Assembly: GCF_003966735.1 (NCBI RefSeq)
Contig: NZ_AP017378.1
Span: 434,001-498,000, forward strand
Source: Desulfovibrio ferrophilus
Lineage (GTDB): Bacteria; Desulfobacterota; Desulfovibrionia; Desulfovibrionales; Desulfovibrionaceae
Length of the DNA stretch: 64,000 nucleotides
Direction of reading: 5' to 3'
Both the position numbers and the translations under genes were made by a program. The notes beneath the pieces were generated by a model that saw nothing but the letters and a program-made list of their open reading frames with translations, did no database searches and was not told where the DNA came from. The first letter of the stretch is position 1, and each line of letters starts with the position of its first letter. Below, one piece after another: positions 8,877 to 63,865 of this stretch.

Positions 8877-9158
8877 ATGCCCAGGTCGCTGAAAAAGGGT
8901 CCGTTCATTGACGGACACCTCATTAAAAAGGTGGAGAAGGCCACTGAGAGCGGTGACCGCCGAGTCATTAAGACTTGGTCACGCCGTTCCACCATCATTC
9001 CTGAGATGGTGGGTATGACCTTCGCAGTGCACAACGGCCGCAAATTCATCCCCGTGTTCGTCACCGAGAACATGGTAGGCCATAAGCTCGGCGAGTTCGC
9101 ACCGTCCCGTACATATTTCGGGCACATTGCGGATAAGAAGAGCAAGGCCAAACGCTAA
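8877..9158 (+). CDS. rpsS: Ribosomal protein S19
   Basis: This 93-residue S19 begins [15 protein letters not shown] and includes the [20 protein letters not shown] and [10 protein letters not shown] segments of the 30S head protein. AGGAG precedes the ATG. Confidence 0.99.
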
Positions 9159-9174
9159 AGGATAGGTGGCTGAT

Positions 9175-9507
9175 ATGGAAACGAAAGCAGTTGCCAAATA
9201 CCAGCGTCTTTCGCCTCAGAAGGCGAGGCTGGTGGCCCGTAATGTCTTGGGCCTGCCGGTTGAAGATGCGATCAATATCTTGCGGTTCACCCCCAAGAAG
9301 GCCGCGAAGCTGATCGGTAAAGTCCTGCACTCTGCAGTGGCTAACGCAGAGCAACTTCCCGGTGTCGATGTGGATAACCTCGTGGTGAAGCAGGTGCTGG
9401 TCAACGAGGGCCCGACCCTGAAGCGCATCAAGCCCAGAGCCATGGGTCGTGCCAACCGAATCCTCAAACGTACCAGCCATATCACTGTGGTTGTCGCCGA
9501 GTCGTAG
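9175..9507 (+). CDS. rplV: Ribosomal protein L22
   Basis: This protein of about 110 residues matches L22 from [18 protein letters not shown] to the C-terminal hairpin [20 protein letters not shown], which reaches the exit tunnel. I prefer the ATG at 9175, with AGGTGG just upstream, to the GTG at 9166, because family members begin at this point. Confidence 0.97.
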
Positions 9508-9517
9508 GGAGGCTGTC

Positions 9518-10162
9518 GTGGGACACAAAGTACATCCGTACGGATTCCGTCTTGGATACAACAAGAATTGGCTTTCCCGCTGGTTTGCTAACAAGCAAGA
9601 CTATGCAGCCAATGTCTTCGAAGACGATAAAATTCGTAAGTTCATTAAGAAGAAACTCTATCACGCCGGAATTTCCCGGCTTGAGATTGAGCGCGCCGGT
9701 GGCAAAGTCCGCCTGCTGATCTTCACCGCTCGTCCGGGCATTGTCATTGGACGTAAGGGCGTTGAAATCGAGAAGCTGCGTGGAGAACTGCGGCAGAAGT
9801 TTGACCGCGAATTCACCATTGAGGTGAACGAGATTCGCCGGCCTGAAACTGATGCTCAGCTCGTCGCCGAGAATATCGCCGTACAGCTTGAACGCCGCAT
9901 TGCCTTCCGTCGTGCCATGAAGCGCACCGTGGGCATGGCCCGCAAGTTCGGTGCCGAAGGTATCAAGATCGCTTGCGCAGGCCGCCTGGCCGGTGCTGAG
10001 ATCGCACGTACCGAATGGTACCGCGAGGGTCGCGTTCCTCTGCACACCCTGCGTGCTGATCTGGATTATGGTTTCGCCGAAGCTCGTACCACGTACGGCG
10101 TCATCGGCGTCAAGGTCTGGATCTTCAAGGGTGAAATTCTGGATCAAGAGGTGCAACAGTAA
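9518..10162 (+). CDS. rpsC: Ribosomal protein S3
   Basis: The GTG at 9518, behind an AGGGAGG site, gives the standard S3 start [17 protein letters not shown] longer in-frame extension upstream is not homologous and overlaps rplV. The 214-residue product has the KH-type segment with [15 protein letters not shown] and lies at the mRNA entry of the 30S subunit. Its stop overlaps the rplP start by one base. Confidence 0.97.
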
Positions 10163-11050: not shown

Positions 11051-11419
11051 ATGATTCAGGTGGAAAGCAGACTCGACGTAGCCGATAATTCAGGCGCCAA
11101 ACAGGTTCTCTGCATCAAGGTGCTCGGTGGTTCTAAACGCCGTTACGCCAGTGTAGGTGATATCATCGTGGTGTCTGTCAAAGAAGCCATGCCCCATTCC
11201 AAAGTGAAGAAGGGTGATGTAATGCAGGCCGTCGTGGTTCGTACTAAAAAGGAAGTGGGCCGTCCCGACGGTTCGTATATCAAATTCGATAACAACTCCG
11301 CGGTGCTTCTCAACAAGTCCATGGAGCCCATCGGGACCCGTATCTTCGGACCTGTGGCACGTGAGCTGCGGGCGAAGAATTTCATGAAAATTGTCTCGCT
11401 GGCGCCTGAAGTGCTGTAG
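11051..11419 (+). CDS. rplN: Ribosomal protein L14
   Basis: This 122-residue L14 begins [17 protein letters not shown] and ends [12 protein letters not shown], the exact family length. L14 helps form an inter-subunit bridge. It is the first protein of the spc-type block here. Confidence 0.99.
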
Positions 11420-11430
11420 AGGATACGGTC

Positions 11431-11754
11431 ATGAAGAAGTTTAAGATTCGCAAAGATGACAAAGTCATGGTCATCTCGGGTAAGGACAAGGGGAAAGTGG
11501 GCAAGGTCCTGAAGATCCAGAAGAAAAAGGATCGGATCTTGGTCGAAAAGGTGAATATGGTCAAGCGCCACACCAAAGCCAACCCCTATACCCAGCAACC
11601 GGGCGGCATTGTGGAGAAGGAAGCTCCTATCCACATCTCGAACGTGGCGCTTTTGTGCGACGCGTGCACCAAGCCGACTCGTGTAGGGTTCAAGGAAGTG
11701 GCCGACGGTAAGAAGGTCCGCTTCTGCAAGAAGTGCAACGAAGTCATCGACTAG
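11431..11754 (+). CDS. rplX: Ribosomal protein L24
   Basis: This 107-residue L24 has the KOW-type start [18 protein letters not shown]. It also carries two CxxC pairs (CDAC and CKKC) near the C-terminus, as seen in zinc-binding L24 variants. L24 initiates 50S assembly. Confidence 0.97.
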
Positions 11755-11765
11755 GGTGTAAGACA

Positions 11766-12305
11766 ATGACACGTCTCGAAGGAATCTATAATGAGAAGGT
11801 TGCTCCCGCCCTCCAGAAGGAGTTCGGATATAAGAGCCCCATGGAATTGCCGAAAATCAAGAGCGTAAGCCTGAATATCGGCCTGGGTGAGGCGAGCACC
11901 AATAATAAGTTGATCGAGGACGCCGTCGAGGAACTTACCTCCATCGCTGGCCAGAAAGCCGTCATTACTCGTGCAAAGAAGTCCATTGCGAACTTCAAAC
12001 TGCGCGAGGAAATGCCGGTAGGCTGCCGTGTCACGCTTCGTGGCGCTGGAATGTGGGAGTTTCTCGATAAGCTCATGAATTTTGCGCTGCCTCGCGTGCG
12101 TGACTTCCGGGGTGTCCGGGATCGCGGCTTTGATGGCCGCGGCAACTTTACCATGGGCATCCGCGAGCACACCATCTTCCCTGAGCTCAACGTAGATCGC
12201 GTTGAGCGTGTGAAAGGCATGAACGTGACCATCGTCACTTCCGCCTCCACGGACAAGGAAGGGAAGGTTTTGCTCGAACTGTTGGGCATGCCTTTCAAGA
12301 AGTAG
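11766..12305 (+). CDS. rplE: Ribosomal protein L5
   Basis: The ATG at 11766 gives a 179-residue L5 starting [16 protein letters not shown]. Upstream in-frame codons belong to rplX in another frame. Conserved [16 protein letters not shown] and DFRGV segments support the call. L5 binds 5S rRNA and contacts P-site tRNA. Confidence 0.98.
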
Positions 12306-50875: not shown

Positions 50876-51043
50876 TTTTGTGGAGGGCCGGAGTGTTGTC
50901 GCTGAGGCGTGAGATCAGAGCCCTGCTCGCGACCATGAATCGGGCTTACGTGTGATTTTCGTGTCACCATTGCGGAATTAGTACGAATATGGCAGGAATA
51001 GGTCAATTAATTGAGAGAGGGTTATTACACGGGGGTACTGTTG

Positions 51044-53695
51044 ATGACCATTCGCCGTATGGTATGCACGCTTATGGTGTGCATTTCGCTCTTTATGTTT
51101 TCTGATAGTGCGGACGCCAAGAAAGTTGTTCTCCAGTTGTGCTGGGATCATCAGTTTCAGTTTGCAGGGTATTATGCGGCGAAGTGGCAAGGCTATTTTG
51201 ATGAAGCTGGGTTGGAAGTTGAAATTCAGTCCGCCTATGGCAAGGATGGAAGTTTCAGCAGGGCCATTGATGCTGTTGCTGCAGGTCGGGCGCAATTCGG
51301 TGTAGGTGCTTCGGATATTCTTGTTGCACGTGACAAGGGAATTCCGGTGGTCGTCCTTGCTTCAATATTCCAGCACAGCGCAGCAGAGATCTATGTGCGT
51401 AAGGACAGTGGTATCGGTGGAGCATCCGATTTAACAGGAAAGAAGCTGGTGCGTCGTCCTGGCGACTTATTCGAAGTGGAACTCCAGGCCATGCTGCGAG
51501 CCGAAGGCGTGGACCCGAACTCCTTGGAATATGCGCCCATCAAAAGAGGCGTGAGGCATTACCAACAATTAGCGAGTGGCGAGGTGGATGCGATCCTTGG
51601 CTACCGCCTGACCACCCCCTTTATGTTGCGAAAGCTTGGAGTCGACTTCAGTGTGTTGCGCCCCATGTCCTATGGTGTCGATTTTTATGGTGATTCTCTT
51701 TACACCACCAAGGATGTTATCGACGCTGATCCCGCCATGGTGCAGGCCTTTATCCGAGCAAGCCTCAAGGGTTGGGAATATGCCCTCGATCATGCCGAAG
51801 AGGTTGCGGAGCGCATTTCGAAGGAATTGCCTCGGGTGCATGCGCCTCTGGAGACCACGGAGTTCAACCTGGGCCAGGTGGAGGGGGTAAAGCACCTTTG
51901 TCCCTACCCACACGTGGAATTGCTGGGCCATGTGAATCCTGAGCGCTGGAGACAGATGCATGAACATCTGCGTGAGTATGGCCAGGTCAAGGGCAGCGTT
52001 GATGTTGGTGAGTTGGTGTACGATCCGGCGGCCTGGGATGAGCGGATCAGTCAGCGATTGACCCGGCTGCTTACCGGTGGCTTTGTGGCGGTCGGAATAG
52101 CGGCTTTATTCGTATTTGCCTGGGCTGTCAGTCTTAGAAAAATTGTAGCGAATAGAACTCGTCAATTGGTTGATTCCAATAGCCGGCTCAAGGATCAGGT
52201 TCTTGAGCGTCAACGCGCCGAAGGGTCGTTACGCGAAAGTGAAGAGCGTTTCCGGCAAATGGTCGAAAATATCCATGTGTTCTTTTGGGTGCGAGAAGCG
52301 GATAGTGGCAAGATTCTTTATACCAGTCCTGGCTATGAGCGCATATGGGGGCAATCGTCCGAGGCGCTTTTAGCGGATTCATCAACCTTTTATGATTCTC
52401 TGCATCCTGATGACTGCAGCACCATTCGCGACACCCTGCAGGAAGGCCTGGCGAATCGGGCTGCAGACTGCGAATGCCGTGTTCTACGGCCTGATGGCGA
52501 AATGCGGTGGGTTCGCTGGCGTGTGTTCCCCGTGCTCAATGCCAAGGGCGAAGTCTATCGTCTGGCTGGTGTGGCTGTGGATATCACCAAGCGTCGCCAC
52601 GCCGAAGATCTGCTGCGCGAAAGCGAACGCCGGTACCGGACAATAACCGAGAACCTTCCGGGCGGAATGCTGCTTTTGGATGGCGACATGAAGGTTGTTG
52701 CGGCCAACTCTACATTCAAGCAATGGTTTCCGGAGACTGAACATGATTTCGGCGGCCATTGCTATTCCCTGATGGGCCAGCAGGAACGATGCCCCTTGTG
52801 CCCATGCTCTACGCTGTTTGTTGACGGTGAGGTGCATACTCAGTTCAAGGAATTATCTGTTCATGGGGCGATGCGAATGTTCCGGGTCATTGCCTGCCCC
52901 ATTCGTGATAACGAAGGGAAGGTTGTTCAAGGGGGGGTCATGTACTCCGATGTAACCGAAGAAGTTAAACTCACTGAGCAATTGCAGCGTGCGACCAAGA
53001 CGGAGCTCTTGGCGACCATGAGCAGTGGCATTGCCCACGAAGTCAACCAGCCTTTGAATGCCCTCAAGTTGTGGACAACCGGTTTAATGATGCTGGTGGA
53101 GAATGAAGGGCGGGTGGAGATGCCGAAACTGCTGGAGCAGTTGGGCAAAATCCAGGGCGCAGCAGACAGGATTGCCTCGGTCATTGACCATATGCGAATG
53201 CTTATTCGCAAGGGGGACAATGTGGAGGTGGAGGTCGTTGACCTCAATATGGCTGTGAAGCGAGCCTTGACCTTGATGTCCGCCAAATTGGCGTATCATG
53301 GCATCAAACTGTCGTTGGAGTTGGAGCCGGGGCCCGCTCTGGTTCGGGCCAATGGGATTCAGCTTGAACAGGTCGTGATCAATCTGATGGTCAATGCCGT
53401 TGACATTCACGACACCTATGATCGGCGCGATAAGCAGATTGTTATATCGACCATAAACAATTCCAGCCATATGATCTTGTCTGTCGAAGATAACGGCCCC
53501 GGATTTGCAGATGAACCGGATAAAATATTCGAACCGTTCTACACGACCAAGAGCCATGGCGGAAGCATGGGCTTGGGGTTGGCCCTTGTCCAAACCTTCG
53601 TGAATTCCTGGAACGGTAAGATAACGGCCGGTGCCTCCGAGCAGTTCAAGGGAGCGAAGATAGAGATATCACTGCTCAAGGGAACCGTGTCGTAG
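51044..53695 (+). CDS. Sensor histidine kinase with THI5/NMT1-like periplasmic binding domain and two PAS domains
   Basis: This 883-residue membrane kinase has a signal peptide, then a periplasmic THI5/NMT1-like binding domain (about 25-340; WDHQFQFAGYYAAKWQGYF). One membrane segment (LLTGGFVAVGIAALFVFAWA), two PAS domains (the second with a Cys-rich CPLCPC stretch), HisKA (GIAHEVNQPLNALKLW) and HATPase (VEDNGPGFADEPDKIF, GLGLALVQ) follow. The binding domain belongs to a fold that recognises pyrimidine thiamin precursors and other small molecules; the ligand here is unknown. It lies 22 bases before the sigma54 regulator, its likely partner. Confidence 0.92.
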   Translation: MTIRRMVCTLMVCISLFMFSDSADAKKVVLQLCWDHQFQFAGYYAAKWQGYFDEAGLEVEIQSAYGKDGSFSRAIDAVAAGRAQFGVGASDILVARDKGIPVVVLASIFQHSAAEIYVRKDSGIGGASDLTGKKLVRRPGDLFEVELQAMLRAEGVDPNSLEYAPIKRGVRHYQQLASGEVDAILGYRLTTPFMLRKLGVDFSVLRPMSYGVDFYGDSLYTTKDVIDADPAMVQAFIRASLKGWEYALDHAEEVAERISKELPRVHAPLETTEFNLGQVEGVKHLCPYPHVELLGHVNPERWRQMHEHLREYGQVKGSVDVGELVYDPAAWDERISQRLTRLLTGGFVAVGIAALFVFAWAVSLRKIVANRTRQLVDSNSRLKDQVLERQRAEGSLRESEERFRQMVENIHVFFWVREADSGKILYTSPGYERIWGQSSEALLADSSTFYDSLHPDDCSTIRDTLQEGLANRAADCECRVLRPDGEMRWVRWRVFPVLNAKGEVYRLAGVAVDITKRRHAEDLLRESERRYRTITENLPGGMLLLDGDMKVVAANSTFKQWFPETEHDFGGHCYSLMGQQERCPLCPCSTLFVDGEVHTQFKELSVHGAMRMFRVIACPIRDNEGKVVQGGVMYSDVTEEVKLTEQLQRATKTELLATMSSGIAHEVNQPLNALKLWTTGLMMLVENEGRVEMPKLLEQLGKIQGAADRIASVIDHMRMLIRKGDNVEVEVVDLNMAVKRALTLMSAKLAYHGIKLSLELEPGPALVRANGIQLEQVVINLMVNAVDIHDTYDRRDKQIVISTINNSSHMILSVEDNGPGFADEPDKIFEPFYTTKSHGGSMGLGLALVQTFVNSWNGKITAGASEQFKGAKIEISLLKGTVS

Positions 53696-53717: not shown

Positions 53718-55175
53718 ATGAAGATTTTGATCGTGGACGATGAACCCATCAGCCTGGCCAGCTTGGGAGACATGATTTCCATGCTCAGGTTTGAGCCAGT
53801 GATGTGCAAGGATGCCGAGGAGGCACTCAAACGCTGCTCAGAAACATACTACCCTGTAATCATTACTGATGTGTGCATGCCTGGGATCGATGGCCTCGAA
53901 TTTCTGGAACGTATCAAGAAGAGCAAGGGAACATCCTCCAGTGATGTGATCATCATCACCGGCCACGGTGAAATGGAAACTGCGGTCAAGGCGCTCAGGC
54001 TGGGAGCCTATGACTTTTTGAAGAAGCCTCTGGATGCTCGCGAGCTTGCGGCCGTGGTTGAACGCAGCGCCGAGCATCAGGCCTTGTTGTTTGAGAACAG
54101 AGATCTTTCACAGTGTTGTGATCGGCGCATTCTGGAGGCCACTCTGGATCTGCAGCGCGATTTGGAAGACGCAAGGGAGCAGCTGCGGAAGATTACCGGG
54201 GTGGGCAATATCGTTGTTTCTTCACCCTGCATGCGCCAGATTCTCAATGATGCCAGGCTCTATCATAAAAACACCGATGTCCCCGTGCTTATCGAGGGGG
54301 AGACCGGTACAGGCAAGGAGATTGTAGCCCGGTTGATTCATCATGGCGAAGATGACTTCAAGGCTCCGTTCGTGGATATCAACTGTTCAGCGATTTCGGA
54401 AAATTTGTTTGAGAGCGAGCTGTTCGGCTATGAGGCCGGTGCCTTTACCGGCAGCGATCGGAAAGGATCAAAAGGAAAGCTGGAGGCCGCTGGCAAGGGT
54501 TCTGTTTTTCTGGATGAAATTGGTGAACTGCCCCTGCATATCCAGCCCAAACTACTGCGTGTCCTTGAAGATCGTACTTTCTACAGAGTGGGCGGCATCA
54601 AGAAAATGCCGCTGGAGGCGCGCATCATATGTGCCACCAATTGCAATCTCGAAGAGATGGTGGAGGAGGGCACCTTCCGCCGGGACCTCTATCATCGTTT
54701 GAAGATTGGCTATTTCACAATATTGCCGCTCAGGCAGCGCAAGGAAGATATTGGGCCTCTGACGCAGTTGTTTTTGGCAGACGAGTCCAAAGCCAAAAAG
54801 AAGCGATTCAAGACGGTGTCCAAGGCCGCGTTGGACATGCTCAGGGCATATCCATGGAAAGGGAATGTGCGCGAGCTGAAAAATGTCATTGAGCGGGCTG
54901 TTCTGGTGTATGACGATGACGAGCTTAGAACGGAGCATTTGGAGTTTCTGGCCGTTAAGCCCGGCGCTAACATGGGCTGGCGCCCCTCGTGCAACCTGTT
55001 TGATCTTTCTGATTTGACCCTGCCTGATGAACCTTTCGATCTGGATGAATTCCTGAATGACCTCAAGCGACAGATTGTGATTAAGGCCGTCGGTCGTTTT
55101 GATAATAACAAAACGCAGGCCGCCGGATTTCTCAACTGGGATCGCAACAAGATCTATCGCCTGATGGACGGATAA
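53718..55175 (+). CDS. NtrC-type sigma54-dependent response regulator
   Basis: This 485-residue regulator has a receiver (phospho-acceptor Asp51 in IITDVCMPGIDG, KKPLD), a sigma54-activating AAA+ domain with Walker A GETGTGKE and the sigma54-contact loop GAFTGS, and a C-terminal Fis-like helix-turn-helix (NKTQAAGFLNWDRNKIYRLM). The conserved GAFTGS indicates an active enhancer-binding protein. It is cotranscribed with the sensor kinase and directly precedes the cytochrome operon, which it probably controls. Confidence 0.95.
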   Translation: MKILIVDDEPISLASLGDMISMLRFEPVMCKDAEEALKRCSETYYPVIITDVCMPGIDGLEFLERIKKSKGTSSSDVIIITGHGEMETAVKALRLGAYDFLKKPLDARELAAVVERSAEHQALLFENRDLSQCCDRRILEATLDLQRDLEDAREQLRKITGVGNIVVSSPCMRQILNDARLYHKNTDVPVLIEGETGTGKEIVARLIHHGEDDFKAPFVDINCSAISENLFESELFGYEAGAFTGSDRKGSKGKLEAAGKGSVFLDEIGELPLHIQPKLLRVLEDRTFYRVGGIKKMPLEARIICATNCNLEEMVEEGTFRRDLYHRLKIGYFTILPLRQRKEDIGPLTQLFLADESKAKKKRFKTVSKAALDMLRAYPWKGNVRELKNVIERAVLVYDDDELRTEHLEFLAVKPGANMGWRPSCNLFDLSDLTLPDEPFDLDEFLNDLKRQIVIKAVGRFDNNKTQAAGFLNWDRNKIYRLMDG

Positions 55176-55418: not shown

Positions 55419-55571
55419 GTCTTTAGGGAGTCGAATGACATGCGACAGAGGATCACCGGCTTTGCCCGTACTGCCGTTTTGGGCCGCACGGGGAGAGGGA
55501 AAAAGCCAGATGGATGAAATAGTAGTTGTGCAGCCTGCGAGGCCGAACGGGAATGGTTGGGAGGAGTTGAA

Positions 55572-56378
55572 ATGGAATTAGGTTTGTTGAAAATGAGGTT
55601 GGCCTTCGCGGGTGTTCTTGGAATTGCCGTGGTTCTGGTCTGGTTCTGCCCGGTTTCAACGGCGCAGAGCGTTCCTGCTGCGACAAAGTTGACCGATGAT
55701 CATTGCATCGTGTGTCACCCCAAGGAGCCTGCATTGGTTGCCGTCAATGGTGGCAAGCATGGCACTGAGATCGGGTGTCTGGATTGCCATAGAGAGCACC
55801 CGCCCCAAGGGACGCGAGCTGTGCCTGAGTGCACCATGTGTCATACGGGCAAGGAGCATTATACACTGGATAATTGCAGCCAGTGCCATTCTTCGGGGCA
55901 TGCTCCGCTGAATTTGAGTCTTGAGGGCGACATTACCGAGCCATGCCTGACCTGTCATAGCGAACAGGGTGTCGAGGTCAAGCACCACCCGAGCGCACAT
56001 GCCGACATGGCCTGCAACGAATGTCACACCAGCCACCGCGAGGTTCCCGCATGTCTGGACTGTCACTCTTCTCATACCGATAGCATGGACCAGGAGTCCT
56101 GCACGACCTGCCACCCGGCTCACAAGCCTTTGGTGGTCAAGTATGAAAGAGGAACGCCTTCGGAATATTGCAAGTCGTGTCATGAAGAGGCTTTCAACGT
56201 GCTCGCCATCAATACGACAAAGCATCATGACCTGGCTTGTGACAATTGCCACCGTTCAGAGCATAAGGCCGTTCCTCCTTGCTTCGCCTGTCATGGCCGG
56301 CCGCATCCGGAAGCCATGCTTGAGAAATTCGAGGATTGTAGCGACTGCCACGGCACGGCGCACGACCTGAGGCGATAG
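55572..56378 (+). CDS. Periplasmic dodecaheme c-type cytochrome
   Basis: This 268-residue secreted protein has a signal peptide (cleavage near VSTAQS) and twelve CXXCH motifs, from CIVCH at 45 to CSDCH near the end, with many extra His residues for bis-His ligation. It is a strong candidate periplasmic electron carrier. GGGAGGAG precedes the ATG at 55572. The next gene is a clear paralog, with the same heme count and C-terminal CHGTAH end. The tight heme spacing resembles NrfH/cytochrome c3-type and Geobacter periplasmic multihemes rather than an enzyme. Confidence 0.95.
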   Translation: MELGLLKMRLAFAGVLGIAVVLVWFCPVSTAQSVPAATKLTDDHCIVCHPKEPALVAVNGGKHGTEIGCLDCHREHPPQGTRAVPECTMCHTGKEHYTLDNCSQCHSSGHAPLNLSLEGDITEPCLTCHSEQGVEVKHHPSAHADMACNECHTSHREVPACLDCHSSHTDSMDQESCTTCHPAHKPLVVKYERGTPSEYCKSCHEEAFNVLAINTTKHHDLACDNCHRSEHKAVPPCFACHGRPHPEAMLEKFEDCSDCHGTAHDLRR

Positions 56379-56439
56379 CGCGGGCCGGGAGCAACCGGCG
56401 CGATGATTTTAGTAACGGCGACAGCATGAGGTGAACGAT

Positions 56440-57345
56440 ATGAGATTGGTTAAAGGTTTGATGCTGCTTGGTCTGCTTGCGGTCTGCCTGGTGTGCGTGG
56501 CGGCCTGCGAGAAAAGGACCCCGGCCGGGGGCGGTGCTGCGGAGCCGATATCCGTGGAACCTGCGCAGCCGGAAAAGCGTGAAATTGCATTATACGACAG
56601 CGGGGTTTCGCCGCTGACAACCGAGCAGTGCGGACAATGCCATTTCCCTGTCTACGATGCCATCCGGGAGGATGGCGGAAAGCACAAGATTCCGTGTGTG
56701 CAGTGTCATGAGCAGTATCATGCATACAGCCCTCGGAAGCAGAACTTTGATGAGATCATGCCCAAGTGCGGCACCTGTCACGTGGGGCCGGACGGAGCTG
56801 AATTCCACGGTTCGGATGAATCGCTCAAGGATTGCTTGAAGTGTCATGCCGATGTGCACCGTCCTCTGCTTATGGATATGGAGAATCTGTCACCGGATTG
56901 TGGCACCTGTCACAAGCCTGTGGCTGGTGAATTGGTGATGAATCCCAGCGCTCACTCCAGTGATGTGGGTTGTGAGGATTGCCATGCCGACAACCATGGC
57001 AAGATCCCGGAATGCGCCGACTGTCATGAGTCGCATAGTCCGGAAGTGGAAATGACATCCGCCGAATGCATGACCTGCCATCCCGTGCACAAGCCCACGG
57101 TTGTGACCTATGGCGAGGACGTTTCGTCTGCGATTTGTGCAGGGTGTCATGACGATGTGCAGCATAATCTGACCAAGAATATCACCAAGCATACAGATGT
57201 GCCTTGTGCATCATGTCACCTCGAACACGAGGGCATCGAGCCATGCAGCAAATGCCATGGTGAACCGCACTCCAAGACCCTGATGCAGGATACATCGAAG
57301 TGTGGAGATTGCCACGGCACGGCACACGAGCTGGCTGCGGGATGA
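56440..57345 (+). CDS. Dodecaheme c-type cytochrome lipoprotein
   Basis: This 301-residue protein has a lipoprotein signal (LAVCLVCVAAC, Glu at +2) and twelve CXXCH motifs from CGQCH to CGDCH. Its C-terminal third aligns by eye with the preceding cytochrome (ITKHTDVPCASCH, CSKCHGEPH, CGDCHGTAHEL). Membrane anchoring suggests that it docks at the outer membrane, next to the barrel encoded downstream. The ATG at 56440 follows GAGGTG. Confidence 0.95.
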   Translation: MRLVKGLMLLGLLAVCLVCVAACEKRTPAGGGAAEPISVEPAQPEKREIALYDSGVSPLTTEQCGQCHFPVYDAIREDGGKHKIPCVQCHEQYHAYSPRKQNFDEIMPKCGTCHVGPDGAEFHGSDESLKDCLKCHADVHRPLLMDMENLSPDCGTCHKPVAGELVMNPSAHSSDVGCEDCHADNHGKIPECADCHESHSPEVEMTSAECMTCHPVHKPTVVTYGEDVSSAICAGCHDDVQHNLTKNITKHTDVPCASCHLEHEGIEPCSKCHGEPHSKTLMQDTSKCGDCHGTAHELAAG

Positions 57346-57424: not shown

Positions 57425-58447
57425 ATGAGACACGGACAATGGATGCGTAACGGGGTGCGATTCTGGGCACTAGGTCTGGTTGCGGTGCTGATGGCCTGCC
57501 CTGCATGGGCAGCAGTGACCGGTCCGTGTGTGGAATGCCATACCATGCACAGCTCTCAGGATGGATCGACGATGGGCAGCAGTGCCGTGGGTATGGCTCA
57601 TTTGACACTTAACGGCTGTATCGGTTGCCATACCAATGGCGGTTTGGGTGGTGTCGCCCCTGTGGTTGACGGCACCTATAATACCGACTCCTGCGCTGGT
57701 GGTACCTTTAAGGAAGGTGCCGGTGGTGTGCAAAGCGATGCGGGCGTCCATAATGTGGACATCGTGATGTCTTCCCTCGGTGAGGACGACACGCTGACCG
57801 GGACCAACATTCCCGGTTTGTCCGGTGGAATGAACTCTGGAAAGGGCGATCAGGATGCTCAAGCCTTGACTTGTGCAGGCAAGAACGGTTGTCACGGCGA
57901 TGCCACCATCGATGGCAACGATGCCGGTATTCAGGGCTTCCACCACGGAGCCAAGGATGGATACCGCTACCTGCAGATCGCAAGCAACCAGGCAGCAGTC
58001 CTCGGTAAGGGTGCCGCTGACTGGGAGGCCGGAATATCCGGTTCTGCAGATGGTACGGGTGGTGAACACAACATCTACAGCTCCGATGTGAGCGCAGGTA
58101 TCAACAAGCTCTGCGCCAACTGTCACCCGGATTTCCACTCGCTGGCCAATACCAATGATGGCAGCAACTGGCTTCGCCACCCCACGGATAACGATATTCC
58201 GACTGCGAGTGGTTGGTCTGCTACGGTGAACTACCGTGAGAATCCGTTCGCTTTCGAAGACATTACCTCCATGGCTCCTGGTACGGCCTATACCGTGACC
58301 GGAGCACAGGTGGCTTGCATCTCTTGCCACCGAGCCCATGGTACGCCTTATGACGACCTGCTGCGTTGGGATTACAATGCCCAATTGGCAGGAAGTACAG
58401 TTAGTTACGGTTGCCTCGGCTGCCATAACAAGCAACGTGGTTCTTAA
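57425..58447 (+). CDS. Secreted multiheme cytochrome with five CXXCH and one CX5CH
   Basis: This 340-residue protein has a signal peptide (ending CPAWA), CXXCH motifs at residues 35, 65, 230, 298 and 330, and an unusual CAGKNGCH at 150-157. The last could bind a sixth heme through a CX5CH site. Hemes are widely spaced, with long Gly-, Asp- and Asn-rich loops, unlike the two compact cytochromes before it. That composition suits an extracellular cytochrome, possibly the surface terminal or a filament subunit, which is inference. GGAGAG precedes the ATG. Confidence 0.92.
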   Translation: MRHGQWMRNGVRFWALGLVAVLMACPAWAAVTGPCVECHTMHSSQDGSTMGSSAVGMAHLTLNGCIGCHTNGGLGGVAPVVDGTYNTDSCAGGTFKEGAGGVQSDAGVHNVDIVMSSLGEDDTLTGTNIPGLSGGMNSGKGDQDAQALTCAGKNGCHGDATIDGNDAGIQGFHHGAKDGYRYLQIASNQAAVLGKGAADWEAGISGSADGTGGEHNIYSSDVSAGINKLCANCHPDFHSLANTNDGSNWLRHPTDNDIPTASGWSATVNYRENPFAFEDITSMAPGTAYTVTGAQVACISCHRAHGTPYDDLLRWDYNAQLAGSTVSYGCLGCHNKQRGS

Positions 58448-58561: not shown

Positions 58562-59593
58562 ATGAATTTTCTCCGCCTGCGCTCCATAAGACTGATGGCC
58601 CTCCTTGTTTTGCTGGGGATGGTGCGTTTGGGCGCAGCCGAGGACGTTCTGCCGGAGGATGTGCCTCGTTCCGAGGAGCCTGCGGCAATGAGTCACTTTT
58701 CGACTCAGGATGAGAATAGAGCTGAGAAGGCTGTCGTCATGGGGACCGTGTTTGAGGATTACGAAGGCCTCAGGATGTCGTTTCCATCACGGGTCTTCGT
58801 GGATCGGAGTAACGGCGAAGTCTATGTCGTGGACGGCGGCAATTCCAGAATCCTCGTCTATACCCATGATTTGTATCCACTGCTCTCCATGGGCGTTTCG
58901 GATGGCCTGGAAAGCCCCGTGGGTGTTTCCGTGGGCAGCGATGGCTACGTCTATGTGGCTCAGGTTCCAGGCAAGGGCGGCACACAATCCAGAATCTCCG
59001 TATTCAATCCTGCGCTGTCATGGGAGCGCGACATCGTGTTCCAGGGATTCAATGGTGCGGAATCTTTTCGTCCCCGCAACGTACTCGTGACCCCGCAGGG
59101 CGAGCTGTACGTCAGTGGTGACAGTTTTGCCGGTCTGGTTGTCCTGAATGCCGATGGTGTATTCGTCCGTCTGCTGAGTGTTGAGGACTCTGTAGGTGGC
59201 GAGGCCCCGCGGCAAGCCATGATCAGCGATATGGAATTGGATGCCTCCGGGCGGTTGTATCTTCTCAGCGAAGAGATGGGGCGAGTCTACGTGTTCGATG
59301 GAGATGGTGTTCTTCAGCGATCATTCGGGAAGAAGGGTGGTGGCTCGGGCAAGCTCAGTAGGCCCCGGGGTATTGCCTTGGATGAGCGTGAGCGGCGGGT
59401 CTTGGTAGTGGACTACATGCGGCACACGGTAAACGTCTATTCCTGGGAAGGCGAACATCTGTTTGATTTCGGAGGCAAGGGGTGGCGTGACGGATGGTTT
59501 CAATTCCCCAATGACATCGGGGTGGATTCCGTCGGTGACGTTCTTGTAGCCGATACATTCAATAACCGCGTTCAGGTGATGCGTTTGGAATAG
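58562..59593 (+). CDS. Secreted NHL-repeat beta-propeller protein
   Basis: This 343-residue protein has a signal peptide (LMALLVLLGMVRLGAA) and about six NHL-type repeats, clearest in FPSRVFVDRSNGEVYVVDGGN, RPRGIALDERERRVLVVDY and FPNDIGVDSVGDVLVADTFNNRVQV. Such propellers often accompany multiheme cytochrome clusters and mediate protein contacts. No heme motif is present. It is the first gene after the attenuator-like hairpin. Confidence 0.93.
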   Translation: MNFLRLRSIRLMALLVLLGMVRLGAAEDVLPEDVPRSEEPAAMSHFSTQDENRAEKAVVMGTVFEDYEGLRMSFPSRVFVDRSNGEVYVVDGGNSRILVYTHDLYPLLSMGVSDGLESPVGVSVGSDGYVYVAQVPGKGGTQSRISVFNPALSWERDIVFQGFNGAESFRPRNVLVTPQGELYVSGDSFAGLVVLNADGVFVRLLSVEDSVGGEAPRQAMISDMELDASGRLYLLSEEMGRVYVFDGDGVLQRSFGKKGGGSGKLSRPRGIALDERERRVLVVDYMRHTVNVYSWEGEHLFDFGGKGWRDGWFQFPNDIGVDSVGDVLVADTFNNRVQVMRLE

Positions 59594-59634: not shown

Positions 59635-61029
59635 ATGCAGTTGGTCATGCGCGTGGTTCTTGTTCTGGTTGCGCTGATGGCGACCGCCTGCACTTCGCTT
59701 GAGAAGATGCCACAAGCCTTTCCGGGTGGGGGAGGGCAGGTTTATTTATATTTTGAAACACTTGGAACCGGTGGGGCAGAGATTCGTTTTGCTCTGTCCG
59801 ATGTGTTTCTGGTGGACGAAGACGGCAGGCGTCATCCACTGGGCGCGGAAGCGGAGCTGTCGTCGGCTGATCCCGATGGTGGTTTGCGGCTGGCTGTGTC
59901 GGGAATGGAGCCGGGCAGATATGTGGGCATGGCGTGGTGCGTGAGTTGGGCCACTGTGGAACGCAATGGCGTCATCGTGCCTCTGGAGCTGCAGGAAACC
60001 GGTGGGGAAACCCTGGTGGAGATTGATTTCACCTTGAAACCTGGTCGCAGCCGGACATTGTTTGCCCAATGGTTCGCCGAGCCTTCATTGTGTGAGGATG
60101 ATGGTTTCCTGCCCAAGCTGACTATACGTGAGCAGCGCGTTGAGTTGGCTTCTTCTCTGATTTTTGTATCCAACGTCGCTGACGCGTCCCTGACCGTGAT
60201 TGATCGATCTCTGAGCCGGGTTGTTGGCTCCATTGCCGTGGGGTCCGCTCCCATGGGCCTTGTTTCCTCCCCAGATGGCACCTGCTTGTACGTCGCCAGC
60301 CATGGTGGACGATGCATTTCGGTGGTGGATGTGGCTGCCGGACATGTGGTGGACACCTTCGGCAACCTTGGCCGCGCCCCTACGGAATTGGCGATATCCC
60401 AGGATGGGGAATTGCTGTTTGCCGTCAATCCGGCCTCGGACAGTGTGACGGTCATTGAAACGGCGACAGGCCAACCCGTGCGCGTGGTTGATGTGGGACG
60501 TAACCCCGGCGGCATCGTTTTCGATGCGGACAGAAACAGGGTGTATGTGGCCAATACCGGCTCAGGCACCCTGTCCGTCATTGATGGCAATACACTTCAG
60601 GTTGTTCGCACCGTGACCGTAGGTCAGGCCCCACGAGGGGTGGCTGTGGCCGATGGCACCCTGTTCGTCACCGATGGCGGGACTTCCACTCTCTGGTTGG
60701 TCGATTTGCCGTCCTATGCCGCGTCGGTGGCGGTTTCTGCAGGAAGTCGCGGGGGGCGTCTGCTGCAAGGGCTGCACGGCATGGTCTACATGACGGCCCC
60801 TGTGAAAGATGAACTGGCATTTGTGCGAACCGCCACTCGTTCTGACGTGAAGAGGGTGCCAATGAACTCGGCTCCCGGGCATATGGCCTTGGATACGGTG
60901 CATCGCAAACTCTACGTGGTTTGTAACGAAGCAGACAAACTGGTCGTTGTGGATGCCTCGATGCGAAAGATCGATACCGTTATGCATGTGGGCAGGAGAC
61001 CCTACGGCGTCACGGTCATCGACGAATGA
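59635..61029 (+). CDS. YncE-like beta-propeller lipoprotein
   Basis: This 464-residue protein has a short lipoprotein-like signal (LVLVALMATAC) and an N-terminal beta-rich domain (about 30-170). Seven YVTN/YncE-type blades follow, with repeated patterns such as VSNVADASLTVIDRSLSRVV and VYVANTGSGTLSVIDGN. It probably lies on the outer membrane or cell surface as a structural partner. Its stop overlaps the start of the barrel gene by four bases (ATGA), showing tight coupling. Confidence 0.9.
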   Translation: MQLVMRVVLVLVALMATACTSLEKMPQAFPGGGGQVYLYFETLGTGGAEIRFALSDVFLVDEDGRRHPLGAEAELSSADPDGGLRLAVSGMEPGRYVGMAWCVSWATVERNGVIVPLELQETGGETLVEIDFTLKPGRSRTLFAQWFAEPSLCEDDGFLPKLTIREQRVELASSLIFVSNVADASLTVIDRSLSRVVGSIAVGSAPMGLVSSPDGTCLYVASHGGRCISVVDVAAGHVVDTFGNLGRAPTELAISQDGELLFAVNPASDSVTVIETATGQPVRVVDVGRNPGGIVFDADRNRVYVANTGSGTLSVIDGNTLQVVRTVTVGQAPRGVAVADGTLFVTDGGTSTLWLVDLPSYAASVAVSAGSRGGRLLQGLHGMVYMTAPVKDELAFVRTATRSDVKRVPMNSAPGHMALDTVHRKLYVVCNEADKLVVVDASMRKIDTVMHVGRRPYGVTVIDE

Positions 61030-63179
61030 ACGACGTGTTGGATTTCATCGTCCTTCAATGCCGGACGGCAGTGAAATGTGCCATATGCGGCCTGATTCTC
61101 CTGCTTGGGGCAATGGCTTGTCCCAAGGGAGGGATGGCGGAGGACAGGGTGAGTGGAGCGCTCCAGCTTTCGTATCGTATCGCGGAGATTCGATCCGGGG
61201 ATGAGGAGCGCATCGATAGCAGTTTTTTGCGGCTTTACAAGGTGCGGTTGAGCAAGGATGTCACCTCTACCGTGAATTTTACAGGGAGCTTTGACTTGAG
61301 CGAGCAAGAGACCAACGAAGTCAAAACAACTTCGCAGATTCCCGAACTGCGGCTCACTGTGTGCAGTGATGTCGTGAACGGGAACGTGGGCTATCGCTTG
61401 GTCGAAAAGGGGTTGCATGGTTTGACCACGGCTTCCGACGAAGAGCGGCGAACCACTGAATCCTGGAATGTTGATCTTGCCACGGCAGCCTTGGAGCGGA
61501 CCCGAATCCGCATGTCCTACCGGCGAGATAGGGACTATGACTACCTCCCCGTGCGGAGCACTGACACTCTGAAGGATGACTGGTTTTGGACAATCGACCA
61601 TGAAGTGATGGATTCCCTGAGTGTTGGCTATAGCTTGCGACTCAGGGAATCTCAGGACCTAGCGGCAGATGTGCGTCAGGACTACCAGAGCAACGAGGGC
61701 TGGTTGCGCTTTAATGACAGGTATCTGGATGACGAGTTGGCTATTTCCGGAAGCTACACGCATACGGTGTCCGAAACTGATATCTCGGTGGGCAGTACGC
61801 CCTACGACGTGGAAACTCAGGTGGCTCCCCTGGCAGGCTTGGGCCGGGAGACGACACCGGGGGCAGGGATTGCTCTGGATCCTTTGGGTGCACTGATCGA
61901 TGGCGATCTGAAATCCAGTGTGGGGTTCAACATCGGCGGAGCCGGGAATACGGATCGCAATCTGGGGCTTGATCTGAATCGTGCTACCCGGGTGGATGAA
62001 CTCAGGGTCTATACCACCGACGCCACGTTCACTCCTGCGGATTATACCTGGGCACTGTACTCCAGTGATGATGGTGTCTTCTGGTCTCAGATCAGTGCGT
62101 CTGCAAGCTTCGTTTACGATGACGAGAAGGACTACTTCGCCATCACCGTACCCGGGGTGGAAAAGCGCTATCTCAAGGTGGTGAACACGACCAATGACGC
62201 CACGGTTTCGCCAATCTATGTCACCGAGATCGAAGCCTATTCCCTGGAACCGCATGCTGCTGATTCCTCGGATAGTGATATGGCCGTGACCAAGAACATT
62301 CAGTTGAACATGAATTACCGGCCCAAGGAATGGCTGCAACTGTCGTATGACATGAGCCAGATCAGGCGCATGGAAGAAGCGGGGGCGGATGAGGTTCGTC
62401 ATGACACGCATAACGCAGGGGTGCGGGTGAGCCATAACCTCGGGGCGTATGTGACGGCTACCGGTCAATATCAGCGGCGTCTTGAGACTCAGACCGGCGA
62501 GCTGGACAGGACGTCGGATTCCTACTTGGCGAACCTGTTGGCTCAACCCATGGAGACTCTGGATGTGGACTTGTCCCTGAGCCGAGTGGATTCGCGCGAG
62601 GGGTCACAGGAAGTGTCCAGCAACAGCGTTGCCCAGATGCATGTGGGGGCATTGCTCAGAAAGGGAGCGCAACTGGACGTTGAAAGCGGGCTGTCCGTTA
62701 ATGAGAATTTTCAATCCGATGCCGTGACTACCGCCAGGAATCTGGACACCAGTCTGCGACTGGAATTGACGCGCAGCCTGACTGCCGATCTGATTCACGA
62801 CATGAGCTGGACGGAGACCGAGCAGGCTTCGAATGTCACCAGGGGGCGGACATCATTCAGCAAGCTTGCCCTGTATTATCGCCCTTCGCGAGTACTCTAT
62901 CTGCGCGGTTCGTACAGCCTCGATCAGGATCACATCACGGGCGTGGAAACGACCAGGCAGGAGTGCACTCTCGGATGGCTGCTGACGAGAAAGCTCCAGC
63001 TGGATACCGGATGGTCCTTGGAGCGTAATGGCAGCGAGAAAAAAATATTCAATGTGGACTTGGCATGGACCCTGAGCCGGATGCTCAACTTGCGATTCGG
63101 CTACGACTGGACTTGGCATCAGGCAGATATTCTGACCGAGGTGCATCAGTATTCCATGGACCTGTCCGCGAAGTTTTAG
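61026..63179 (+). CDS. Outer-membrane beta-barrel (porin-like conduit protein) with a discoidin-like domain
   Basis: This 717-residue exported protein has a Sec signal (CGLILLLGAMACPKGGMAED) and alternating amphipathic strands throughout, with a C-terminal aromatic ending (YSMDLSAKF), all typical of outer-membrane barrels. Within it, residues about 275-408 look like an F5/8 type C (discoidin) fold: VDELRVYTTDATFTPADYTW, LYSSDDGVFWSQIS and RYLKVVNTTNDAT. The gene order suggests an MtrB/PioB-like role in housing a cytochrome across the membrane. Membership of a specific porin family is unproven. Confidence 0.8.
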   Translation: MNDVLDFIVLQCRTAVKCAICGLILLLGAMACPKGGMAEDRVSGALQLSYRIAEIRSGDEERIDSSFLRLYKVRLSKDVTSTVNFTGSFDLSEQETNEVKTTSQIPELRLTVCSDVVNGNVGYRLVEKGLHGLTTASDEERRTTESWNVDLATAALERTRIRMSYRRDRDYDYLPVRSTDTLKDDWFWTIDHEVMDSLSVGYSLRLRESQDLAADVRQDYQSNEGWLRFNDRYLDDELAISGSYTHTVSETDISVGSTPYDVETQVAPLAGLGRETTPGAGIALDPLGALIDGDLKSSVGFNIGGAGNTDRNLGLDLNRATRVDELRVYTTDATFTPADYTWALYSSDDGVFWSQISASASFVYDDEKDYFAITVPGVEKRYLKVVNTTNDATVSPIYVTEIEAYSLEPHAADSSDSDMAVTKNIQLNMNYRPKEWLQLSYDMSQIRRMEEAGADEVRHDTHNAGVRVSHNLGAYVTATGQYQRRLETQTGELDRTSDSYLANLLAQPMETLDVDLSLSRVDSREGSQEVSSNSVAQMHVGALLRKGAQLDVESGLSVNENFQSDAVTTARNLDTSLRLELTRSLTADLIHDMSWTETEQASNVTRGRTSFSKLALYYRPSRVLYLRGSYSLDQDHITGVETTRQECTLGWLLTRKLQLDTGWSLERNGSEKKIFNVDLAWTLSRMLNLRFGYDWTWHQADILTEVHQYSMDLSAKF

Positions 63180-63190
63180 AGGTGGGTGAG

Positions 63191-63865
63191 ATGAAAAATA
63201 TGATTGGTTTGATTCTGTTTTTGAGAAGAGGGACAGGGGCTCTGCCCTTGATGCTGGTCATGGCATCACTGCTGTTGGCAGGGTGCGCCAAGCCCATGAA
63301 TTATGTCCATCCCAATGCGGACCTGAGTTATGTGCGTTCTGTGGCCATCGTGCCATTCAAGAACCTGACTCAGGAAAAATGCGCAGAGGAAAAGGTGATG
63401 CACGTGGTGGCCACCGAGATGCTGCGCCGTGGTGTGGATGTGGTGGAATTCGGCGAAGTGGCCAAGGTGCTGCGTGGCGAGGGGCATGGCAAGGATGAGG
63501 GCTCCATCAATCGCAAGGTGGCTGAAGGCGCTGCCCGCCGTTTGGGGGTGCAGGCGTTTTTGGTGGGTGCGGTGCAGGAGTATGGGCAATCGACCAAGGG
63601 TGGTGACGCCTACCTTGAGGTCTGTGTGTCCCTGCGGCTCATTGATGCCAAGACATGCACAATTTTGTGGGAGGCCACACATAGTCTCAAGGGGACGACA
63701 GTTCTGGACAGGCTGTTTGGTATCGGCAAGCAGAGTCGCACCGATTTGAGCCGGGATGTGGTGGTGGAAATGTTTGCATCATTATTTGAGCATGAGCGTG
63801 AGATGCCGGCGGCATTGGCCCGGCATGAGACCAAGGAACTGCGCAACGGCCTTGCGGGCATGTAG
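63191..63865 (+). CDS. GNA1162/CsgG-like outer-membrane lipoprotein
   Basis: This 224-residue lipoprotein has the lipobox LLAGC. An N-terminal strand SVAIVPFKNLT and a helical-strand pattern (VMHVVATEMLRRGVDVVEFGEVAKVL, AARRLGVQAFLVGAVQEYG) match the CsgG/GNA1162/TolB-N-type fold used in outer-membrane lipoproteins. It follows the barrel gene after 11 bases with GGTGGG upstream. It may assist secretion or assembly of the surface components. Confidence 0.8.
   Translation: MKNMIGLILFLRRGTGALPLMLVMASLLLAGCAKPMNYVHPNADLSYVRSVAIVPFKNLTQEKCAEEKVMHVVATEMLRRGVDVVEFGEVAKVLRGEGHGKDEGSINRKVAEGAARRLGVQAFLVGAVQEYGQSTKGGDAYLEVCVSLRLIDAKTCTILWEATHSLKGTTVLDRLFGIGKQSRTDLSRDVVVEMFASLFEHEREMPAALARHETKELRNGLAGM

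Follow-up and report, generated by a model that had tools for sequence, protein, structure and literature searches.

A discoidin-type domain in a predicted outer-membrane barrel encoded in a conserved cytochrome island of Desulfovibrio ferrophilus

INTRODUCTION

Desulfovibrio ferrophilus corrodes iron. The 64,000-nucleotide stretch of its genome analyzed here, referred to as the window, carries part of an island of genes for multiheme cytochromes. One gene of this island, an intact open reading frame (ORF) at positions 61026 to 63179 of the forward strand, encodes a protein of 717 amino acids that is predicted to be an outer-membrane beta-barrel with an internal discoidin-like domain. The gene is almost certainly DFE_0453 of strain IS5, as we infer because the gene order matches that of DFE_0448 to DFE_0465 in Table 2 of PMC8322314. 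In this table, DFE_0453 occupies the same slot between the DFE_0452 propeller and the DFE_0454 lipoprotein and is named an "F5/8 type C domain protein" without a predicted signal peptide; the report also describes its detection in planktonic, biofilm, and extracellular samples. That paper does not call the protein a barrel, and the words "barrel" and "porin" are absent from its main text. An outer-membrane pore has been reported as not apparent in D. ferrophilus.

Similar islands have been described in Geobacter and in bacterial partners of anaerobic methanotrophic archaea (ANME). In Geobacter, the eight genes GSU2500 to GSU2493, among them the gene for the 26-heme cytochrome GSU2495, are linked to the maturation and secretion of OmcS nanowires (PMC12977616). 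The osc cytochromes are given as oscC (GSU2501), oscI (GSU2495), and oscJ (GSU2494) in PMC13194489, which, citing Shen 2025, assigns folding to OscH, secretion to OscE-G, and morphology to OscD. Skennerton 2017 (PMC5539420) described a four-gene core of isomerase, 26-heme cytochrome, 16-heme cytochrome, and propeller and reported SEEP-SRB1a/c to be without a known conduit porin. Murali 2023 (PMC10553843) placed a beta barrel, OetI, in such clusters and described OetABI as a porin with a periplasmic and a surface cytochrome; the word "discoidin" is absent from the main text of that paper. Our literature search, in which coverage of subscription papers was mostly lacking, found no paper that joins discoidin domains with extracellular electron transfer.

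The D. ferrophilus locus resembles the osc block, in which eight genes include a 26-heme and a further cytochrome at the places expected from the barrel loci described below. This likeness is one of gene order; the source text identifies only the Geobacter cytochromes. By counting position, and from gene order alone, the barrel would equal OscE (GSU2499). We take OscH to be the isomerase and OscD to be propeller-like. Unlike osc, the D. ferrophilus locus carries extra genes inside the block, plus a pair of 12-heme cytochromes. With OetABI of the ANME-partner sulfate reducers, which we could compare by description only, it shares a barrel clustered with periplasmic and surface cytochromes.

RESULTS

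A discoidin-type sandwich is embedded in the protein. The sequence-only reading of the window had proposed a discoidin sandwich at residues 275 to 408 of the protein encoded at 61026-63179, and this observation is confirmed: a profile search against the PDB, Pfam, and a fold search support a sandwich at residues ~271 to ~406. When the 34 homologous inserts that could be aligned (from 38 homologous ORFs, leaving out the fragments L032, L033, and L069 and the N-containing L060; L numbers denote homologous loci) were searched as a profile against the PDB, the matches included a sialidase (1wcq, E = 4.1e-7), the pectin-binding YeCBM32 (2jd9, 2.4e-6), and galactose oxidase (8tx6, 4e-6). Domains of the F5/8C/CBM32 kind also ranked top with the whole-protein family profile. 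The single DFE_0453 sequence gave one PDB match, with an E value of 1.3, which we take as chance. In a Pfam scan at E ≤ 1, the protein matched two F5/8 type C models and nothing else; the better of the two, PF00754, covers residues 286 to 390 (E = 8.4e-5, 23.1 bits for the whole protein). Scanned singly at E ≤ 0.01, the inserts matched PF00754 in 17 and PF22633 in 9 of 34 cases; homologues scanned as whole proteins did so in 3 and 4 of 31.

An AlphaFold2 (AF2) model of residues 261 to 413, built from two sequences, shows nine strands. The mean predicted local distance difference test (pLDDT) value of the best model is 60.4, with ~75 over residues 301 to 408, and the remaining four of five models reach 31 to 34. 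Among the Foldseek and VIA matches listed for this fragment, most are F5/8C, CBM32, or discoidin domains, including domain 1 of galactose oxidase, CBM32s, neuropilin b1, factor VIII C2, and DDR2; some unrelated chains are listed as well. The top VIA-align Z value, 8.6, is in the middling range, and hence the sandwich claim rests mainly on the sequence profile. With known domains of this type (the 1EUT/1WCQ sialidase, galactose oxidase domain 1, neuropilin b1, and factor VIII C2), the D. ferrophilus domain shares the fold and a conserved core, seen as IDGD, Y-S-DG-W, RY-KV, and TEIE; unlike them, it is embedded in a predicted barrel loop and lacks the presumed galactose ligands.

The insert occupies a long loop of a predicted 28-strand barrel. 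Both the barrel and the placement of the insert are predicted from sequence periodicity. A full alignment of 31 homologues was made, leaving out L032, L033, L055, L060, L068, and L069 (short or incomplete) and L048 (odd start), and 30 of them (L054 was too short) entered a strand model that permits even strand numbers only and in which residues 261 to 412, the sandwich, were masked. Family-averaged amphipathy gave 28 strands, of which 11 precede and 17 follow the insert, and the model with the insert on the loop side returned this number at all five strand penalties. The score at the middle penalty was 15.23, whereas none of 100 column shuffles scored above 5.61. The turns measure 13 residues from centre to centre with a standard deviation (SD) in length of 1.1, and the loops measure 24 residues with an SD of 3.5 (P = 0.0008; strand anchors were set by eye and one truncated row was included). 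The slot of the insert, between strands 11 and 12, belongs to the class of long, variable loops. Placement on the loop side beats placement on the turn side by 0.89 in the family profile (null range, −0.55 to 0.47) and scores better in 28 of 30 single homologues. The C-terminal residue is Phe in 21 of 31 homologues. In outer-membrane proteins, long variable loops point outwards as a general rule; by this rule, the discoidin domain would lie on the extracellular side of the barrel. The barrel type, the sandwich, and its position on the loop side, all proposed from the sequence alone, are supported here.

The MtrB barrel has 26 strands and, to our knowledge, no discoidin loop. The MtrB/PioB porins are similar to the predicted DFE_0453 barrel in strand number and in the multiheme cytochromes that adjoin them. 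Membership in this family was rejected: the 31 members matched seven families at E ≤ 0.01, none of which is its model, PF11854, and this model has no match genome-wide at E ≤ 0.1.

The insert is constant and better conserved than the strands. The slot holds 143 to 197 residues in all 31 homologues of the full alignment. Seventeen further insert-type barrels were found, one of them from the L031 organism again, and 16 match the insert profile; the exception, L078, has a slot of 222 residues. Mean pairwise identity among 25 nonredundant rows is 28.0% for the insert versus 22.5% for the strands, and the insert is the more conserved part in 236 of 300 pairs. We take H539, W542, R572, and E578 to be the galactose ligands of the CBM32 domain in 1EUT. 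No His or Trp occurs in 34 sequences at the columns aligned with H539 and W542, and no Arg is among the residues listed for columns 328 to 339, the R572/E578 stretch, with the loop alignment being uncertain. By these ligand residues, the domain does not appear to belong to the galactose-binding CBM32s.

Gene, start site, and conserved block. Table 1 lists the features of the window. The start of the barrel ORF overlaps the stop codon of the upstream propeller gene. An alternative in-frame GTG at 61071 would give DFE_0453 a signal peptide of 23 residues; the start at 61026 may be 15 codons too early, which may explain why no signal peptide was predicted in PMC8322314. A lipoprotein N terminus (..GAMAC..) was considered and dropped, with the equivalent Cys missing in L031. 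In the genome (3.72 Mb, two contigs searched), the protein has a single match, and the only match of PF00754 at E ≤ 0.01 is the protein itself.

Table 1. Barrel gene, its parts, and neighbouring genes in the window
Feature	Position	Strand	Remark
12-heme cytochrome	55557..56378	+	DFE_0448 by gene order
12-heme lipoprotein cytochrome	56431..57345	+	DFE_0449 by gene order
5-heme cytochrome	57425..58447	+	DFE_0450 by gene order
NHL 6-bladed propeller	58562..59593	+	DFE_0451 by gene order
7-bladed propeller lipoprotein	59635..61029	+	DFE_0452 by gene order; directly upstream of barrel
Predicted outer-membrane beta-barrel with internal discoidin-like domain, 717 aa	61026..63179	+	DFE_0453 by gene order
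Probable signal peptide, residues 1-38, cut GMA/ED	61026..61139	+	Inferred from sequence
Predicted barrel strands 1-11, residues ~41-246	61146..61763	+	Family strand model
Discoidin/F5/8 type C (CBM32-like) domain, residues ~271-406, long loop 6	61836..62243	+	Profile, fold model
Predicted barrel strands 12-28, residues 423-717, C-terminal Phe	62292..63176	+	Family strand model
LpoB/GNA1162-like lipoprotein	63191..63865	+	DFE_0454 by gene order; likely start at 63191 in an ORF open from 63065

Beyond the window, DFE_0454 is followed in order by a 535-amino-acid ORF with weak Ig-like matches, a second lipoprotein (0456), a SurA-like isomerase, a 26-heme cytochrome that is a probable lipoprotein, a 16-heme cytochrome, an NHL propeller, and two 6-heme cytochromes. 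The second lipoprotein scores 21.2 bits against CsgG, a narrow pass of the Pfam cut-off of 20.8, and by analogy recalls curli-type secretion. On L070, two lipoproteins of the LpoB/GNA1162/CsgG type (9066-9866 and 11168-11947) flank the 535-amino-acid ORF, the former being the same gene as that starting at 63065/63191 in the window. Upstream of the island genes, a sensor histidine kinase with NMT1/THI5-like substrate-binding and PAS domains (51011-53695) precedes the gene for a sigma-54-type response regulator (53718-55175), and this pair perhaps regulates the cytochrome island.

The block recurs with the barrel. Among the 31 loci that extend 8.2 kb or more beyond the barrel on its downstream side, a 0454-like lipoprotein is present in all, the isomerase in 30, and a cytochrome with at least 23 heme motifs in 29; homologues of 0455 (26 loci) and 0456 (25), a 14- to 17-heme cytochrome (24), and an NHL protein (23) are also frequent. 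The two loci without a 26-heme match are L060 and L045, in which the ORF is cut by the locus end after 15 motifs. All 11 further loci with room carry the 26-heme gene. A homologue of the 7-bladed propeller lies directly upstream in 20 of the 32 loci that reach 2.5 kb or further on that side. In the 22 loci covered on both sides, a cytochrome of more than 300 amino acids with 5 to 8 hemes was found in 18 and a 12-heme cytochrome in 7. L075 to L077 share the order hexaheme cytochrome, 7-bladed propeller, barrel, lipoprotein, protein of 370 to 390 amino acids, isomerase, 26-heme cytochrome, and 16-heme cytochrome; L075 and L076 additionally have an NHL protein between the hexaheme cytochrome and the propeller.

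Cousin barrels without the insert. The family profile matched 66 of 395 genomes of the phylum at E ≤ 1e-5, including D. ferrophilus itself, with some matches being partial or weak. Among the loci retrieved, ten cousin barrels (L090-L094, L095, and L096-L099; L090, L091, and L093 are from one genus) have no sandwich. Their slot, a stretch that includes the next hairpin, measures 58 to 61 residues in eight of the nine that were aligned, and masked letters occur in L097. For L092, the strand model predicts 34 strands at the lowest of three penalties and 30 at the other two, with an ordinary 22-residue loop after strand 11; for L090, it predicts 32 strands and an irregular stretch at the slot. In L096 (7298-10759), the cousin barrel lies within an ORF of 1,153 amino acids, with ~560 other residues ahead of the barrel match and overlapping competing ORFs. 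A FastTree phylogeny was built from the barrel columns, with a protein that lacks the insert as the root; in it, all proteins with the insert fall into a single clade (support, 0.70). This tree includes both L031 and L072, whose barrels are letter-identical and represent one organism. Within the family of D. ferrophilus, 3 of 199 genomes carry the barrel at E ≤ 1e-5, and because these three barrels group with those of other families (support, 0.96), the gene was likely spread by lateral transfer.

None of the ten cousin loci, of which L094, L095, L098, and L099 stop at contig ends, shows a 26-heme cytochrome. A 10-heme cytochrome lies downstream in six of them (L090, L091, L092, L093, L096, and L097), and in the two tested, L090 and L092, it has an N-terminal redoxin domain with a separate redoxin adjoining. 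We read the redoxin-decaheme loci as a parallel module. Most of the six loci also contain an NHL propeller and an LpoB-like lipoprotein.

DISCUSSION

Computation establishes the sandwich fold, its insertion slot, the long-loop side, its occurrence in each of the 31 aligned homologues, and a gene block that recurs. We consider it fairly probable that DFE_0453 serves a conserved cytochrome island as its outer-membrane pore, with a loop-borne discoidin domain that docks or caps an extracellular cytochrome or nanowire partner. The ~28 beta strands would close into a wide barrel in the outer membrane with its long loops directed outwards, the sixth of which is replaced by the discoidin/CBM32-like sandwich. 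The SurA-like isomerase and the GNA1162/LpoB/CsgG-like lipoproteins could help to place the barrel and its clients, and the pore would then pass or sheathe a multiheme cytochrome of the island, with the surface-exposed discoidin domain docking or capping the extracellular partner. We favor a docking or capping module over a private adhesin because the domain is constant in the clade and better conserved than the strands and lacks the presumed galactose ligands, which argues for a structural or protein-docking role and not for a lineage-specific galactose adhesin.

Several observations weigh against this proposal. The PF00754 score of DFE_0453 is below the curated cut-off of 28.2 bits, both for the whole protein and for the insert alone (25.9 bits), and galactose need not be the only ligand of CBM32 domains. 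Full-length AF2 modeling, with the window protein and L031 only, gave a pLDDT value of 27.9 and an unusable model. The whole-protein profile found no convincing solved barrel, EstA (3kvn, E = 0.11) being the only barrel recognized among the matches listed, and few of the 31 members match barrel families (IAT_beta, 3; OMP_b-brl, 2; Omp85, 1; DUF481, 1). In addition, the deletion of DFE_0448-0450, 0461-0462, or 0464-0465 is reported in PMC9769857 to leave Fe(III) oxide reduction unimpaired. Two of the 30 single sequences, L049 and L066, score slightly better with the insert on the turn side, as would be expected if it were a periplasmic plug or another turn-side domain. We regard such a placement as very improbable, however, since the family profile scores better with the insert on the loop side whichever of the five penalties is used, solutions on the turn side require extra or skipped strands, and the slot of the cousin L092 is filled by a long loop.

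What the pore would do can be read in more than one way. The barrel may be a nanowire secretion pore of the OscE type, exporting OmcS-like cytochromes together with the isomerase and the CsgG-like lipoproteins while the discoidin domain nucleates or holds the filament. The agreement in gene order with GSU2500-2493, the frequent 5- to 8-heme cytochromes, and the CsgG score of 0456 speak for this tentative possibility; however, the 26-heme cytochrome, about as constant as the isomerase, would need a role in it, and the barrel is equated with OscE by gene order only. We can equally entertain, again with reserve, a porin-cytochrome conduit of the OetI type, in which the barrel sheathes the 26-heme or the 16-heme cytochrome and the discoidin domain orients the outer cytochrome. 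The description of OetABI in PMC10553843 and the near-constant cytochrome with at least 23 heme motifs downstream are consistent with such a conduit, whereas the MtrB/PioB model is without a match in the genome and OetI (OEU57520.1) is known here by description only. The sequence-only reading had gone further than barrel and surface loop, proposing an electron conduit with an adhesion domain of its own for carbohydrates or partner-cell surfaces. The CBM32-type fold on the loop side, the adjoining multiheme cytochromes, and the occurrence of comparable islands among ANME partners (PMC5539420 and PMC10553843) would fit this idea, but the added adhesin is weakened by an insert that is conserved above the strands and present in every aligned homologue, unlike what would be expected of a partner-specific adhesin, and by the missing His and Trp residues, and we now consider it improbable.

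More speculatively, and somewhat doubtfully, the discoidin domain could be dedicated to docking, nucleating, or capping either cytochrome nanowires or the 26-heme surface cytochrome, and its gain (or loss) would have coincided with that of the 26-heme/16-heme block. A sugar-binding fold would then have been recruited into a loop of the pore, where it holds an electrical contact instead of a glycan, and the insert-less cousins would serve a parallel redoxin-decaheme system.

In summary, the apparent agreement of the block with the Geobacter osc genes GSU2500-2493 in gene order makes the predicted DFE_0453 barrel a concrete candidate for the outer-membrane pore that D. ferrophilus had seemed to lack. 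Its discoidin domain resembles a long-standing, conserved component of a machine for cytochrome export or wiring more than a private adhesin. The loop that bears it is a clean target, with the insert-less cousins showing that such a barrel exists without a discoidin domain, and the choice between conduit and secretion pore becomes testable in a genetically tractable sulfate reducer.

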